A stretch of 64,000 nucleotides of DNA from Nitrososphaerota archaeon (GTDB lineage Archaea; Thermoproteota; Nitrososphaeria; Nitrososphaerales; Gagatemarchaeaceae). Position 1 is the first letter of the stretch. Every line of letters starts with the position of its first letter. This document shows positions 8,020 through 14,755 of this stretch, piece after piece. The DNA lies in contig JAFMAI010000001.1 in assembly GCA_029785085.1 (NCBI GenBank), positions 1 to 64,000 on the forward strand. Direction: 5' to 3'. Made by a program: the position numbers and the translations under genes. The notes beneath the pieces are model-generated. The model was given only the letters and a program-made list of their open reading frames with translations. It did no database searches and was not told the origin of the DNA.

Positions 8020-9807
8020 CTAAAACCCGTACATCGGGTCCGCCGGCGACTTTATCGCAATGACTTCGTCCAGCACATGCTTCTCGTCCTCAGTCAGGGA
8101 ACCGAGGAGCTTCGTGCGGAGGATCTTCGCCTCATGGCTGCGCGGCATGGCATAGAGGATGTCGTTCTCCTTCACCTGCCTCCCGAGGGTCGGGCCCTGG
8201 ACCGAGATGGCCACCTCCTCCCCCTCCTTCGCCTCGCCGACCGCTTTGCCGTTGTCCTGCACCTGCTCGACGGTCCCTACCTCGGTCCCTGCCGAAGACA
8301 TCAACCTAACCTTGGGGCGGAGCCGCCCGGCGACCACTTCGACCCCGAACACGGCTGGGTCGTTCCGTCTGAAGAACGCTCCCGGGAGGACCTTGAGCTT
8401 GCATGGCCGCGTCAGGCTCGAAAGAGCGGCCCTCTCGTCCGCATCCTTCTTCGCAGTCGCCCAGCTGGCATAGTTGTCGATGACCTCATAGATGATCGAG
8501 GAGATGAAGACCGGGCTCGAACCTGCGTGCTCCTTGGCCTCGGGGAGGACCTTCGAATCGAAGCCGAGTATCGCCCCGAGGTAGGGGTCGTGCTCTCCGA
8601 CCACCTGGGCGGCGACGATGTCGTTCTTCGAGATGTCCCCTATGTCTGCCTCCCTCACCGGGACACCCCTCTCCTCCAGCATCCTCAGGAGAGCTTCCAG
8701 GCCGCCTATGCTCCCCGCCTTCACTATCACCCCCATGTTGTCTGTCTTGACCACGATGTTGGAGAGCTCCTTCTCCATCTCCGACTTGAGGTCCTGGAAC
8801 TGCCTCTCGGTGGTGAAGGACGCCACCAAGGTGCCTGCCACCACCCCTCCGAGGTCTGGGGAGACCAGTTTTACTCCCGCCGCGGCGTAGGCGGCGGTCA
8901 CGGCGGTGAACTTGTCCCTGGGGTCTCGCATTTCGTCCAGCGGCTTGGGCATGAAAAGCGCCTTCACCTTGGACTTGAACGCGCCGTCCCTGCGGACCAG
9001 CGATATCGAGTCCCCCACGCTCAGGGTCCCCTCGGTCAGGATCACGTTGGCCGTCTGGCCGATGCCCACCTCCTCCTGAAGCTCCAAGATTATCCCGCGA
9101 GCCGAAGGAGCGTCTCCTACCCTCAGCTTCCCCTTCAGGAACTGCTGCGCGAGGCCGATCAGCATGGCCAGCATCTCCGGCATCCCCACTGGCGCCCTCG
9201 CCGAGACAGGGACTATGGACACCTGCTGGCGGAAGTCCTTGACTCTATAGTAGGCATCAGACTGGAAGCCGAGGCGGTTGAGCCCCCCGACCACGTTATA
9301 CAGGCGTTCCTCTAACTCGTCCCCCCAGGTCGGGGCCTGGTCCTTCATCACCTGCAGGAGAGGACCCTTGCTCCCCTTCTTCCAGCCGCTGATCATGTCT
9401 ATCTTGTTCAGCGCGACCAAAAAGGGGACGTGCCTCTGCTTCAGGATGTCAATGCTCTCTAGGGTCTGGTTCTCCAGCCCCTTCAGAACATCGACGACGA
9501 GTATCGCGATGTCTGCCGCCGACCCTCCTCTGAGCCTGAGGTTGGAGAAGACTGCGTGACCAGGTGTGTCTATCATGAGAAGCCCTGGTATCTGGAGCTC
9601 GCCCCCCGCCCTGTCCAGAAGAGGCCCGCATATCGTCCTCAGCGTCTCCATAGGGAAGAAGCTCGCCCCTATCTCCTGCGTTATCCCGCCCACCTCGCGG
9701 GCCTGGACCCCGGTCCCTCTCAGGCAGTCAGCGATTGAAGTCTTGCCAGAGTCTACGTGCCCCAGGATGACGACTACAGGCTGCCGTATGCGGCTTTGCT
9801 CTGACAT
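8020..9807 (-). CDS. infB: Translation initiation factor aIF5B
   Basis: VVVILGHVDSGKTSIADCLRGT...GGITQEIGA...LLMIDTPGHAVFSNLRLRGG. Confidence 0.96.
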   Translation of the reverse strand: MSEQSRIRQPVVVILGHVDSGKTSIADCLRGTGVQAREVGGITQEIGASFFPMETLRTICGPLLDRAGGELQIPGLLMIDTPGHAVFSNLRLRGGSAADIAILVVDVLKGLENQTLESIDILKQRHVPFLVALNKIDMISGWKKGSKGPLLQVMKDQAPTWGDELEERLYNVVGGLNRLGFQSDAYYRVKDFRQQVSIVPVSARAPVGMPEMLAMLIGLAQQFLKGKLRVGDAPSARGIILELQEEVGIGQTANVILTEGTLSVGDSISLVRRDGAFKSKVKALFMPKPLDEMRDPRDKFTAVTAAYAAAGVKLVSPDLGGVVAGTLVASFTTERQFQDLKSEMEKELSNIVVKTDNMGVIVKAGSIGGLEALLRMLEERGVPVREADIGDISKNDIVAAQVVGEHDPYLGAILGFDSKVLPEAKEHAGSSPVFISSIIYEVIDNYASWATAKKDADERAALSSLTRPCKLKVLPGAFFRRNDPAVFGVEVVAGRLRPKVRLMSSAGTEVGTVEQVQDNGKAVGEAKEGEEVAISVQGPTLGRQVKENDILYAMPRSHEAKILRTKLLGSLTEDEKHVLDEVIAIKSPADPMYGF

Positions 9808-9833: not shown

Positions 9834-10253
9834 TCACCCTAGCGTCTTGCCGAAGAAGGCCGCGCTCTCCTTTGTAAAGCTCTCGGTGGAATCTGAGGCG
9901 TGGATGCAGTTGTCAGTCAGCCCTAGGCCGAAGTCCCCCCTTATGGTCCCCGCCGCGGCCTCCCAGCTCTTCGTCGCTCCGACCATCCGTCTGACCGTGG
10001 CGACGGCATCCCTGCCCGACATGACAACCCCCACCACCGGACCCGATGTGATGAACGAGACCAGCTCGCCGAAGAAGGGCTTCGCGTTGTGGACGCTGTA
10101 GAACTCCTCCGCCTGAGGCTTCGACATTGTGAGCATCTGTACCCTCTTGACAGCGAACCCCTTCCTTTCGAACCTCCCGATGATCTCTCCGACCAGGCCC
10201 CGCTTCACGCCGTCAGGCTTCACGACGATCAGCGTGTCTTCGACGGCGCTCAT
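9834..10253 (-). CDS. ndk: Nucleoside diphosphate kinase
   Basis: TLIVVKPDGVKRGLVGEIIGRFERKGF...IRGDFGL...IHASDSTES; start set at MSAVEDTL, ATGA overlap with L24e stop. Confidence 0.95.
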   Translation of the reverse strand: MSAVEDTLIVVKPDGVKRGLVGEIIGRFERKGFAVKRVQMLTMSKPQAEEFYSVHNAKPFFGELVSFITSGPVVGVVMSGRDAVATVRRMVGATKSWEAAAGTIRGDFGLGLTDNCIHASDSTESFTKESAAFFGKTLG

Positions 10254-10432
10254 TTCTTGGCGGGTCTCCTCGCCCACTTCAGTTTGCGCGGGTCCCGACC
10301 CAGCTTCAGGTCGTTGGTTCTGCACTTGGAGGAACAGTAAGACTTGGTGGAACCGTCGTTCTTCACGTAGAGGGTGCCCGAACCGAGTCTGACCTCTTTA
10401 CCACAAAAGACGCATTTCTTTGGGACGTACAT
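10250..10432 (-). CDS. rpl24e: Ribosomal protein L24e
   Basis: CVFCGKEVRLGSGTLYVKNDGSTKSYCSSKCRTNDLKLGRDPRKLKWA. Confidence 0.93.
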   Translation of the reverse strand: MYVPKKCVFCGKEVRLGSGTLYVKNDGSTKSYCSSKCRTNDLKLGRDPRKLKWARRPAKK

Positions 10433-10535: not shown

Positions 10536-11468
10536 TCATGTCGGAACGGTCCCCCCGAGATGTCTCATCCAGTGCTGGGCCTCCACGATGAGCCTCTGGC
10601 CGAAGTCCTTCGGGTGCGGGACGAAACCCTCGAGCGCCTTTGCCAACGTTTCAGGGCCCAGGTTGGCCAAGTCTTCCAGGTTCACGGCCCCGAGGCCGGT
10701 GGCCCCCCTCAGCCTCACCCCTATCTCCAGCTCGTTTGTCTTGATCGCCTCGAGCTCCTTCTCGTCAGCGAAGGCGCTGGACAAGAGCGGGATGTCACCC
10801 GTCAAGATGATCTCCTTGACAGACCGCCCCTTCGCCTTCATCGCGGCGTAAAGGTGACTCGGGGGAGCCACCTCCTCCAGAGAGAGGGCGGCGAACAGGG
10901 TCCTGGCCATGGGCATCTTCCTTATCCCCCTTCGCTCCGAAATCACCCTCTTCAGGTCGACGGAAGCGATGAACGGGAAGACGTAGTCGACGCTCTTCGT
11001 CACCTTCTTCGCCAGGTTCTGCCTGAACCAGAGCCGCATGGCATCCTGGGACTCGAGGCCCTGCGGCGTCCTCGTCGGCGGGAGCACCCAGACCCCCGGC
11101 TGGACTGCCTTGAACCCCATTTCGATGAGCCTGTCCTTGAAGACGGTCGAATCGTTCTTCTTCTTTGTCTTCTCGTAGGACTTGAGCAGAAGGAGGGACC
11201 TCACCTCATATGGATAGGACCTGATGAGCTCCTCGGGGGTCAGCCCTGAGTTCTTGAGCTGCCAGTCGAGGCGCACCATCAGCTTCTTGTACACCGCGTC
11301 GCTGTCTTCGAAAGTCGCCGGGACTGAAAGGTCCTCTCCGGCCACCTCAATCCTGCTTATGACAGCCAGTATCAGGTCTTCGTCCTTGGGCGAACCCGGC
11401 CCGGATAGCCTGCCGAGAGGGACCCTCACCTTCTCGAAGAATCCGGCTATCCGCTTTACCGCTGACAA
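10536..11468 (-). CDS. Uncharacterised 310-aa protein, third gene of the tubulin-like locus
   Basis: Long ORF co-oriented with the tubulin homologue; no family recognised. Confidence 0.75.
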   Translation of the reverse strand: MSAVKRIAGFFEKVRVPLGRLSGPGSPKDEDLILAVISRIEVAGEDLSVPATFEDSDAVYKKLMVRLDWQLKNSGLTPEELIRSYPYEVRSLLLLKSYEKTKKKNDSTVFKDRLIEMGFKAVQPGVWVLPPTRTPQGLESQDAMRLWFRQNLAKKVTKSVDYVFPFIASVDLKRVISERRGIRKMPMARTLFAALSLEEVAPPSHLYAAMKAKGRSVKEIILTGDIPLLSSAFADEKELEAIKTNELEIGVRLRGATGLGAVNLEDLANLGPETLAKALEGFVPHPKDFGQRLIVEAQHWMRHLGGTVPT

Positions 11469-11522: not shown

Positions 11523-12059
11523 CTAGGAGAGCTTCCGTTTGAGCGCCTTCCTCAGGTCCTCGAAAGCATCCACTAGCTTCTTCTTGGCGAAGTACTCGTC
11601 TGATTCCGCGACCACCACCCTGTCTTCGGAGATTGTCACGTCCCCCAAGCTGAGCGGGGACGGAATGCCGAGCATGGCCGAGAAAGCCTCGACCGACTTC
11701 GGGAATGTCGCACCGGATCTGAACCTGAAGGTGAAGGAACGCCCCCCAGACACAGGTATAGGGTCCAGAGGCACTATTAGTCGGTCGGAGCTGAGCCCGG
11801 TGAACATCTGGCCGTGGACTTCTCGGATGGATGCCAGTACGTCCCCCCGCTCCCTCTTCAAGGCAGCCGCCCTGTCTTGGTGCCCCGGGTCGGACCAGTC
11901 GAGGCCGATCAGGGCGTAGAATGCCTGGTCCTTCTCGTTCCTCTTTGGGTCCTGCGTGATCTCCTGTGACAGCACATCGAGTTCGCTGTCGATGGTCTTG
12001 AGCCTCTTCTGCTCTTCCAGTAACCTACCGGCTGCAACCTCCAGTTCTGTGAGGTTCAT
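11523..12059 (-). CDS. Uncharacterised 178-aa protein with probable N-terminal coiled coil, second gene of the tubulin-like locus
   Basis: Starts 7 bp after the tubulin homologue stop; charged helical N-terminus (ELEVAAGRLLEEQKRLKTIDSELDVLSQEI). Confidence 0.75.
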   Translation of the reverse strand: MNLTELEVAAGRLLEEQKRLKTIDSELDVLSQEITQDPKRNEKDQAFYALIGLDWSDPGHQDRAAALKRERGDVLASIREVHGQMFTGLSSDRLIVPLDPIPVSGGRSFTFRFRSGATFPKSVEAFSAMLGIPSPLSLGDVTISEDRVVVAESDEYFAKKKLVDAFEDLRKALKRKLS

Positions 12060-12066
12060 CTCTTAC

Positions 12067-13431
12067 CTAACCCAGGTGGCTTGAGACTTCGATGACCGCT
12101 TTCTTGAATTCCTCGTGCGTCAGTTCCCTGTTCTGGTACTCGTCCTTGTAGGAGTCCCAGGCGTCCTCGGCTTCCGTGACAAAGGGCAGGAGCTTCTTCC
12201 CTGTCCCCTTCACATTGAGAAGGACGAGGGCCGACGCGGGCTCGTTGGTCATGGTGGGTATCTTGACGAAGATCACTCTCTTGTCCTGGATGCCGTACTT
12301 TTCGTTCAGTATCTTCTTGAAGAACTCCCTCTCTTCAGCATCCACGCTCCCGGCGCACTTTATCAGGACGCAGGCTGAGTCAGTCTTCCCCTTCTCCATC
12401 TCCCCCTCCTGTTCGAGGTTGAAAAGAAGCCCATCGTTCCCCTCTTCGAACGCCTCCTCGATGGACTTTATCTCCGAACTCCCTTTCGGGACCAGAGGCA
12501 GGAGCCATGGCACCACGAACTTCGGCTTGCTCGCAGCCAGCCAGGTCCTGTAGTTGGACATGTCCCACTCCGTCTCGCGTATGAATGAATCCATGAACTC
12601 GGCTATCACGTGGGCAGCCAGCAGGTTCTTGTTTCTATAGTCGTGCCAGCCGACGCGGATTTGCTTCGGGAGCTCGTCCACGATGGAGGACCGCGCGTCG
12701 AGCTGATTCTTCAGCCTGTCCGCCTGGAACCTGAGCTCTTTGTTGTCCATCAAGATTGGGGCATCAGAGTACTTGATCTGATAGGCCAGGTTGAGAACGA
12801 TGCTGATGTGGGCGGGCCCGTAGATGACAGGGTCCCAGCCGAACTCAGGGAGCACCCCGAAGGTCGCGATGGTGGCGTGCCCGAGGGCGCTGTTCCCCTT
12901 GACGTAGGACATGAACTCAGATGAGAACGAACCCCCCGTCCCTCCACCCATGCTGAACGGGACTATGAAACCCCTCACCGGTTCGGGCGAGATCGCCTGT
13001 ATCCTAGACGCGATGTCCTGCTTCCCAACGATCTCGTTCCTGAACCTGCTCCTACCCTCGGCCCAGTTCCTCGCAGCCCCGCCCAGGCCGTAGACAGCGT
13101 GCTTGTCCTTCATGGCGAAGAGCTGCGGATATGACTGCAGGATGAGGTTCGCCGAGCGTGGGTCGAGGTCCACGAGCAGCGCCCTCGGCACGAGGGGCAT
13201 CTCCCCCTTCCGCAGCGAAGCGCCGAACCTGAGGATCGTGCTTCCATACCTCCGGAGGACTTCCAACTGCTGCTTCTCTCCTTTCAGGGTCGGCGCGGTG
13301 GGGTCCGCCCCCACGTCAATCAGCACCCAGCGATAGGCTTCGGCGCCGATACCTACTCCCGCATGGCCCATGCAAGCCATGATGACCGGGTTAGGTGCAA
13401 GCGGAGCTTGGTTCGCTGCCCTGAACGCCAA
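12067..13431 (-). CDS. Tubulin superfamily GTPase, eukaryote-tubulin/artubulin-like
   Basis: GHAGVGIGAEAYRWVLIDVGADPTAPTLKGE; VPRALLVDLDP; VYGLGGAARNWAEG; SMGGGTGGSFSS (T4 loop); ILMDNKEL; T7-like TEWDMSNYRTWL; tubulin-length 454 aa with a C-terminal H11/H12-like acidic helix region. Confidence 0.88.
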   Translation of the reverse strand: MAFRAANQAPLAPNPVIMACMGHAGVGIGAEAYRWVLIDVGADPTAPTLKGEKQQLEVLRRYGSTILRFGASLRKGEMPLVPRALLVDLDPRSANLILQSYPQLFAMKDKHAVYGLGGAARNWAEGRSRFRNEIVGKQDIASRIQAISPEPVRGFIVPFSMGGGTGGSFSSEFMSYVKGNSALGHATIATFGVLPEFGWDPVIYGPAHISIVLNLAYQIKYSDAPILMDNKELRFQADRLKNQLDARSSIVDELPKQIRVGWHDYRNKNLLAAHVIAEFMDSFIRETEWDMSNYRTWLAASKPKFVVPWLLPLVPKGSSEIKSIEEAFEEGNDGLLFNLEQEGEMEKGKTDSACVLIKCAGSVDAEEREFFKKILNEKYGIQDKRVIFVKIPTMTNEPASALVLLNVKGTGKKLLPFVTEAEDAWDSYKDEYQNRELTHEEFKKAVIEVSSHLG

Positions 13432-13486
13432 CGGTTTACCTCCCCTCCCATCTTTTTTATACGTTTGTCAGTTTCTGGGTGCAGGT

Positions 13487-14062
13487 TTGAGCTACGACGA
13501 ATCCAAGGCTAAGGACGTCCTCTTTGTGATAGACGGCTCAAGGAGCATGGGAGGGAAGTTGCACTCTTCCGGCATGAGCAAGATGAAGATCGTCAAGACC
13601 GGACTGTTCAACTTCGTGGCTGAGTACTGGCCGGTCTCCTACTTTCCGTGGCCGATCAGGATGGGGGTGACGTTCTATAGGTTGCTGGGGACCCCAGGTT
13701 CCACTCAGATCGAAGTGGTAGTCCCCCTGAACCCTGCTCCGGCCTCGCTGGAGCTCTACCGGCTGGAGGACCTGCAGTGCAAGGGCGGGAGCCCCCTGGT
13801 CGACGCGGTCAAGTACGGCATCGAGAACATCTCCGACTCCATCAGGAAGGAGAAGGTCATCAAGCTGATCAGCGACGGAGGGAACGACAGGGAGCCCATC
13901 AAGACCATATCCGAAGAGTTGAAGATATCCCCGGTCGAGGTGGACGTGATAGAGCTCTCCAACGAGGCATCGAAAGAGCTCAGGGACATCGCCACCCTCA
14001 CCCACGGGACGTACACCAGGCCACACAACCTGGCTGATTTCGAGAAGGCTATCCGAAGTTAG
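13487..14062 (+). CDS. VWA-domain protein, divergent from tubulin homologue
   Basis: DVLFVIDGSRSMGG (DxSxS MIDAS), GGSPLVDAVKYGI, LISDGGNDREP; TTG start proposed at 13487; TATA-like TTTTTTATAC upstream. Confidence 0.85.
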   Translation: MSYDESKAKDVLFVIDGSRSMGGKLHSSGMSKMKIVKTGLFNFVAEYWPVSYFPWPIRMGVTFYRLLGTPGSTQIEVVVPLNPAPASLELYRLEDLQCKGGSPLVDAVKYGIENISDSIRKEKVIKLISDGGNDREPIKTISEELKISPVEVDVIELSNEASKELRDIATLTHGTYTRPHNLADFEKAIRS

Positions 14063-14153: not shown

Positions 14154-14372
14154 TTACTTGAGCTTCCTCGCTTCGCGCTCCGTCTCTCTGAGCACGAGCA
14201 CGTCGGCCAGCCGTATCGGCCCCTTCACGTTCCTGGTGAGTATGCGGCCCTTCTCCTTTCCCTCGAGAATCTTCACCCTCACCTGGGTTATCTCGCCTGC
14301 GACCCCTGTCCGCCCGACTATCTGGACTACCTCGGCCGGAGTGAGTGTCTCTACTTCTTTCTTGCTGCTCAT
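14154..14372 (-). CDS. rps28e: Ribosomal protein S28e
   Basis: [61 protein letters not shown]. Confidence 0.96.
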
Positions 14373-14755
14373 GCGGCCTTCTTCAGCCTCGAAAGCTCTT
14401 GAGTGACCTGCTCCAAGATTTGGGAGCCTTCACCAGCCTCGAGGACCGCCGCTGCCGCCGTCGACACGTCGATGCCGATAGCCGGACCTATCTGGTCCTT
14501 GGAGGGCACGAAGACATAGGGTATCTTCCTCTCGTCGCAGAGGATTGGCAGGTGGGCGACCACCTCAGGCGGCGTCACGTCCTCGGCTATCACCACCAGC
14601 TTGGCCAGCCCCCTCTCGATGGCCTTCGTCGACTCGTTGGTGCCCTTGCGGACCTTTCCGGTCCTGGACGCCTGCCTCAGCACCTCGTAAGCTGCTTCGG
14701 AGACTTCCTTCGGGGTCTCGAACTTGATGTAGTAGGGCTTCTTGTCGGGGGTCAT
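14369..14755 (-). CDS. rpl7ae: Ribosomal protein L7Ae
   Basis: [52 protein letters not shown]. Confidence 0.96.

Follow-up and report, generated by a model that had tools for sequence, protein, structure and literature searches.

An artubulin gene and its constant downstream partner in a Nitrososphaerota genome

Which tubulin-like protein an archaeal genome encodes, and whether it can be expected to work in the manner of FtsZ or of the microtubule-forming tubulins, are the questions raised by one gene in the 64,000-nucleotide stretch of Nitrososphaerota DNA analysed here (the window). A first-pass annotation had described it as a eukaryote-like tubulin homologue and had left open whether it is an artubulin, a member of an FtsZl1-like family or the representative of a new clade. 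The gene (12067-13431, minus strand) begins with a TTG codon at 13431, which is preceded by the purine-rich stretch GGGAGGGGAGG, and ends with the stop codon at 12067-12069; it forms one uninterrupted frame of 454 codons, and the plus strand is broken by stops over the same region. Every peptide quoted by the annotation was found in this 454-aa translation. The Pfam family Tubulin (PF00091) was matched with 43.1 bits (cut-off 33; E 7.6e-11). Moreover, databases contain 16 further distinct artubulin copies with 62-95% identity to the window protein, which excludes a chance open reading frame; the close copies stem from metagenome-assembled genomes labelled Nitrososphaerota, Thaumarchaeota or Nitrososphaerales archaeon.

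Family identity of the tubulin homologue

The best sequence matches in the PDB were the Asgard tubulins AtubB/Heim-alpha (4e-16) and AtubA (2e-12), followed by eukaryotic beta- and gamma-tubulin; in a profile search, gamma-tubulin came first among the eukaryotic tubulins. No significant blastp match was obtained with the canonical FtsZ or the CetZ-like proteins that occur in its class. Aligned as a single sequence, the window protein matched significantly only over residues ~17-248. The profile-profile alignment related positions 22-451 of the artubulin profile to positions 4-414 of alpha/beta/gamma-tubulin (379 columns, P 98.6), and at this level the annotation was right in claiming similarity over the whole length and not just in the FtsZ core. 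Such an end-to-end match was seen with alpha/beta/gamma-tubulin only: For the CetZ-like proteins just 124 columns were aligned, and for FtsZ hhalign gave a P of 8%. Artubulins and tubulins have in common a tubulin-type insertion that separates H8 from S7 and is missing from FtsZ and the CetZ-like proteins, and artubulin conservation extends over the whole tubulin body with a mean column identity of 71%. The window sequence has no acidic C-terminal tail. The AlphaFold model of the artubulin, which is based on a shallow alignment of 17 rows, has a mean pLDDT of 41 and is better only in parts of residues 320-400. Assigned by hand, the order of its elements would be H7-H8-S7-H9-S8-H10-S9-S10 plus two C-terminal helices, as in tubulin. 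In the Foldseek comparison which the annotation had suggested, the 50 matches listed for this low-confidence model were all tubulins (E 5e-8 to 1e-6, TM ~0.3).

For the superfamily phylogeny, likewise suggested, the artubulins were combined with human alpha-, beta- and gamma-tubulin (verified residue by residue against PDB chains), two Asgard sequences, both of them GTPase-domain fragments taken from alignments, and FtsZ and CetZ-like proteins of the class. Note that the CetZ-like set was chosen by length and motif and not by comparison with a named CetZ, and that TubZ and PhuZ were left out. With f1 denoting the family of the window's own genome, perhaps group I.1c-like, and f2, f3, f4, f5, and f9 other families of the class, the maximum-likelihood tree united the artubulins of f1, f2, f5, and f9 in one clade (support 100/100), within which f2 and f5 stand apart from f1 and f9. 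Artubulins and tubulins were split from CetZ and FtsZ with a support of 99.8/100. The artubulins sit on a long separate branch, and this tree does not fix their exact position relative to the eukaryotic tubulins, which is also called unresolved in the available text of PMC13394414. Based on these findings, CetZ is rejected by the 124 aligned columns and its separate clade; FtsZ is rejected by the tree, the hhalign result and the asparagine found at the D212 position (see below), and the genome possesses a separate FtsZ. In this genome (0.9 Mb, 66% complete), PF00091 proteins number two, the artubulin and this divergent FtsZ (G000 contig C18, 25819-26283, L068), which has the motif GGATGSG and a lysine at the catalytic aspartate position. 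The FtsZ of Nitrosopumilus maritimus is reported not to assemble into polymers (PMC3684127).

The window protein shares 53-55% identity with f2 copies over ~453 aa, which is nearly its full length. In the f2 locus L090, the genes around the artubulin code for Snf7 (E 9e-10), DNA polymerase B, triosephosphate isomerase (TIM) and an MFS transporter; the artubulin neighbourhood published in PMC3349469 consists, in the available text, of Snf7, DNA polymerase, TIM, and MFS. Due to this agreement, the published family is that of the window gene. Judging from its synteny with Nitrosoarchaeum, f2 appears to be of the Nitrosopumilaceae type, and it is by synteny that the published artubulins of N. limnia and N. 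koreensis would be equated with those studied here. In Nitrosotenuis, Snf7 is not adjacent to the artubulin (PMC3835317, available text), and among the loci examined it is absent from the window block and from the vicinity of most other artubulins. Taken together, the identity to f2 copies, the synteny of L090 and the tree settle the choice of family in favour of artubulin. That the window gene belongs to the thaumarchaeal tubulin family of Yutin and Koonin is practically certain; this membership is firm, and polymerisation and function are what we infer from it. A eukaryote-like tubulin homologue is thus present in this archaeal genome, as PF00091, PDB matches, tree and profiles agree, but the novelty implied by the annotation was too high, as artubulins have been known since 2012; those of Nitrosoarchaeum and Nitrosotenuis are the subject of PMC3349469 and PMC3835317 (available text). 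Artubulin is now found in another archaeal family (f1) than that of its first description.

GTP site and T7 loop

The base contacts N230, Y265, and N269 (N206, Y224, and N228 in tubulin) are conserved in 21 of 21 artubulins. In the phosphate loop T4 (GGGTGGS, 12928-12948, minus strand, residues 162-168), the core GGGTG is intact, and the last glycine of GGGTGSG is replaced by serine or alanine in artubulins. The T7 loop ETEWDMSNYRTW (12541-12576, minus strand, residues 286-297) ranks among the most conserved stretches of the family. The annotation had emphasized an aspartate retained in this loop; it is indeed present (D290, corresponding to D251 of alpha-tubulin), but it is not the diagnostic residue, as the one relevant for hydrolysis lies three positions further on, where N293 takes the place of alpha-tubulin E254 and FtsZ D212. 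Across the protofilament contact, it is this acid that switches on GTP hydrolysis in the adjacent subunit; beta-tubulin, which also lacks it, has no such effect at its contact. The position is occupied by asparagine in all 21 artubulins and by aspartate in FtsZ (7/7) and CetZ-like proteins (7/7) of the same class. A pair of the alpha/beta type with the catalytic E254 in one subunit, the arrangement of microtubule-forming tubulin, is rejected by this asparagine and by the single copy which is the rule for artubulin.

With asparagine in place of the trans-activating acid, contact with the next subunit would trigger no or only slow hydrolysis, and filaments or oligomers would stay GTP-bound. Artubulins may hence hydrolyse GTP poorly; as deduced from the residues of the loop, such a hydrolysis-poor mechanism is a serious possibility, which falls somewhat short of being probable. 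Alternatively, the acid could be supplied from within the same highly conserved loop, because none of the 21 artubulins deviates at E288 or D290, and tubulin and FtsZ have an asparagine at the position of E288. If E288 (or D290) replaced the missing E254/D212, artubulin would form dynamic polymers that hydrolyse GTP, as FtsZ and alpha/beta-tubulin do, a reading with which the preserved residues of the GTP pocket are consistent. However, asparagine occupies in all artubulins examined the very position on which FtsZ, CetZ, and alpha-tubulin rely, and the example of beta-tubulin argues against activation at such a contact, which makes a hydrolysing polymer rather unlikely. For the preferred reading with little T7-triggered hydrolysis, the absent acid amounts to a sharp biochemical prediction.

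The partner protein and the surrounding genes

Seven bp after the artubulin stop, a gene for a protein of 178 aa begins (11523-12059, minus strand), which is named partner here. The annotation had overlooked this gene, as it had the missing catalytic acid of T7. Its AlphaFold model (pLDDT 89) consists of a helical (coiled-coil) hairpin (residues 3-91) and a compact alpha/beta domain (residues ~95-178). Comparison with PDB, Pfam, and NCBIfam gave no confident match; the best PDB match had an E of 0.06, so that no function can be read from the fold. A classification as Snf7/ESCRT-III was rejected, as there is no Pfam match and the Snf7 of L090 is a different gene located upstream of the artubulin. 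The partner or a homologue (25-86% identity) follows directly downstream of artubulin in every complete locus examined (f1, f2, f5, f9), and this order is constant although the surroundings differ completely between the loci of the four families. In a profile search of 400 genomes of the class, the partner scored above 200 bits in 88 of the 88 genomes having an artubulin; the only genome with a strong partner but without artubulin is G260, whose contig ends where the artubulin would come. In three genomes without artubulin (G108, G087, G197), decayed pieces of the partner remain, in G108 beside the Snf7 of the published locus; here, artubulin loss is seen directly. Co-occurrence and remnants indicate that both genes were gained and lost together.

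Partner homologues also occur on their own. In f3 genomes (L116-L119), a lone homologue (105-125 bits) without artubulin adjoins an archaellum-like cluster with a FlaH-like ATPase and an archaellin-like protein, and in f4 genomes (L122-L126, L131), again without artubulin, a short protein matching the C-terminal domain alone occupies a conserved spot between Nep1-like and S19e-like genes (all names assigned by eye). In the published artubulin literature, neither the partner nor the T7 asparagine is described in the available texts, supplements and subscription journals lying outside this scope, and in the available texts of papers on non-ammonia-oxidising Nitrososphaeria the word tubulin does not occur. 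It is likely that the partner and artubulin proteins have been noticed earlier in sequence collections.

The 88 genomes with artubulin orthologues, most of them full length and some cut by contig ends, belong to f1, f2, f5, and f9, and among 300 genomes drawn from the phylum no artubulin was found outside the order. One full copy per genome is present, except in G113 and G376, which have two; in G113 (f5), two artubulin-partner pairs lie at the separate loci L082 and L083. The patchy distribution could result from loss or from old transfer, and an aIF5B tree, whose backbone is unresolved, does not separate vertical descent from transfer.

The 1:1 linkage with a small partner would also suit an artubulin that no longer polymerises and, together with the partner, forms a GTP-switched oligomer or scaffold, e.g. 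at the membrane or with CdvB. The loss of both the T7 acid and the last T4 glycine and the Snf7 gene adjoining the artubulin in L090 point in the same direction, whereas the conservation of the whole tubulin body including the H8-S7 insertion and the lack of an Snf7 neighbour in the window and in most loci speak against it; we regard this alternative as unlikely. The constant partner gene offers a first obvious candidate cofactor for co-purification.

In the window, the two genes are part of a block set in a translation-gene cluster, between the gene for ribosomal protein L7Ae (14369-14755, minus strand) on one side and those for nucleoside diphosphate kinase (NDK; 9834-10325, minus strand) and, beyond it, aIF5B (8020-9807) on the other. 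The block further contains a gene for a 310-aa protein without assigned function (10536-11468, minus strand), which follows the partner and is confined to some members of the own family, and one for a VWA-domain protein with the MIDAS motif DGSRS, which is divergent from artubulin and restricted to the own family (13370-14062, plus strand, as longest open reading frame; its true start is probably near 13463). Five relatives from the own genus have no artubulin (G096, G390, G242, G213, G176); in them, L7Ae lies close to NDK and all four genes are missing from the interval, and in G310 the block is missing here and artubulin, partner, 310-aa, and VWA genes are found at another place. These empty sites and the relocated block indicate that, in the own family, the four genes are relocated or lost together. 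The aIF5B frames of the same-genus genomes G310, G333, G400, G402, G404, and G254 (L104-L107) comprise ~1120 codons versus 600; close to the GTPase P-loop, around residue 22-29, they are interrupted, probably by an intein; the window copy has no interruption.

The VWA gene adjoining the artubulin in its own family recalls the FtsZl1 (Tubulin_2) type of membrane-remodelling system, whose loci include VWA proteins and whose FtsZl1 is described as lacking recognisable T6-H7-T7 elements (PMC2875224, available text). Membership is rejected, because neither the protein nor the genome has a PF13809 (Tubulin_2) match at E<=1. Moreover, artubulin has the T6-H7-T7 elements, and the VWA neighbour is absent in f2, f5, and f9; a role shared with the VWA protein is conceivable, but as an explanation of the locus this system is extremely improbable.

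Proposed mechanism and comparison with known systems

According to the explanation we prefer, artubulin and its partner make up a cytoskeletal element of two components that binds GTP and in which T7 triggers little hydrolysis; taken as a whole, we consider it fairly probable. Artubulin would bind GTP and stack head to tail into protofilaments, in which the T7 asparagine would keep the contact to the next subunit from causing more than slow hydrolysis; the resulting filaments or oligomers would remain GTP-bound, comparable to the non-exchangeable site of the alpha/beta dimer or to gamma-tubulin. The partner would bind artubulin and cross-link, anchor or disassemble it. Whether artubulin binds GTP and assembles with the partner acting as its cofactor is, in our judgement, evenly balanced. 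In the own family, the VWA protein with its MIDAS metal site and the 310-aa protein may extend the module, and the system might act beside Cdv-type division as an element of shape, membrane or segregation. More tentatively, and doubtful at present, Nitrososphaeria could possess an obligate two-component cytoskeleton of GTP-stable polymers whose turnover or anchoring falls to the partner and which works without hydrolysis triggered by T7. If true, this would be a tubulin system regulated unlike both FtsZ and microtubules. Artubulins, for which the available texts of the literature surveyed report no function, belong to the small number of archaeal lineages that have been connected with the emergence of tubulin in eukaryotes, and a host range of at least four families offers many orthologues for choice and more sequences to root tubulin trees.

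With the FtsZl1/Tubulin_2 systems (PMC2875224), the locus shares a tubulin-fold GTPase encoded near a VWA and a coiled-coil protein; in contrast, its coiled coil is a separate protein, and artubulin has the full tubulin C-terminal domain and no PF13809. Gamma-tubulin, like artubulin, is without an acid at the E254 position, but the two sequences are very far apart; artubulin comes with a partner of its own, and gamma-complex proteins were not recognised beside it at the loci. The artubulins of Nitrosoarchaeum and Nitrosotenuis agree with the window protein in sequence (f2 copies), in the invariant T7 loop and in the downstream partner gene, whereas the window gene belongs to family f1 and lies between L7Ae and NDK, with the VWA and 310-aa genes instead of the Snf7 neighbour of the Nitrosoarchaeum locus. 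The Asgard tubulins AtubA/AtubB and Heim-alpha/beta (PMC13394414, PMC13371889) share with artubulin the signatures VPRALLVDLDP, GGAARNWAEG, and DN; they constitute, however, an alpha/beta pair, whereas artubulin is usually encoded by one gene per genome.
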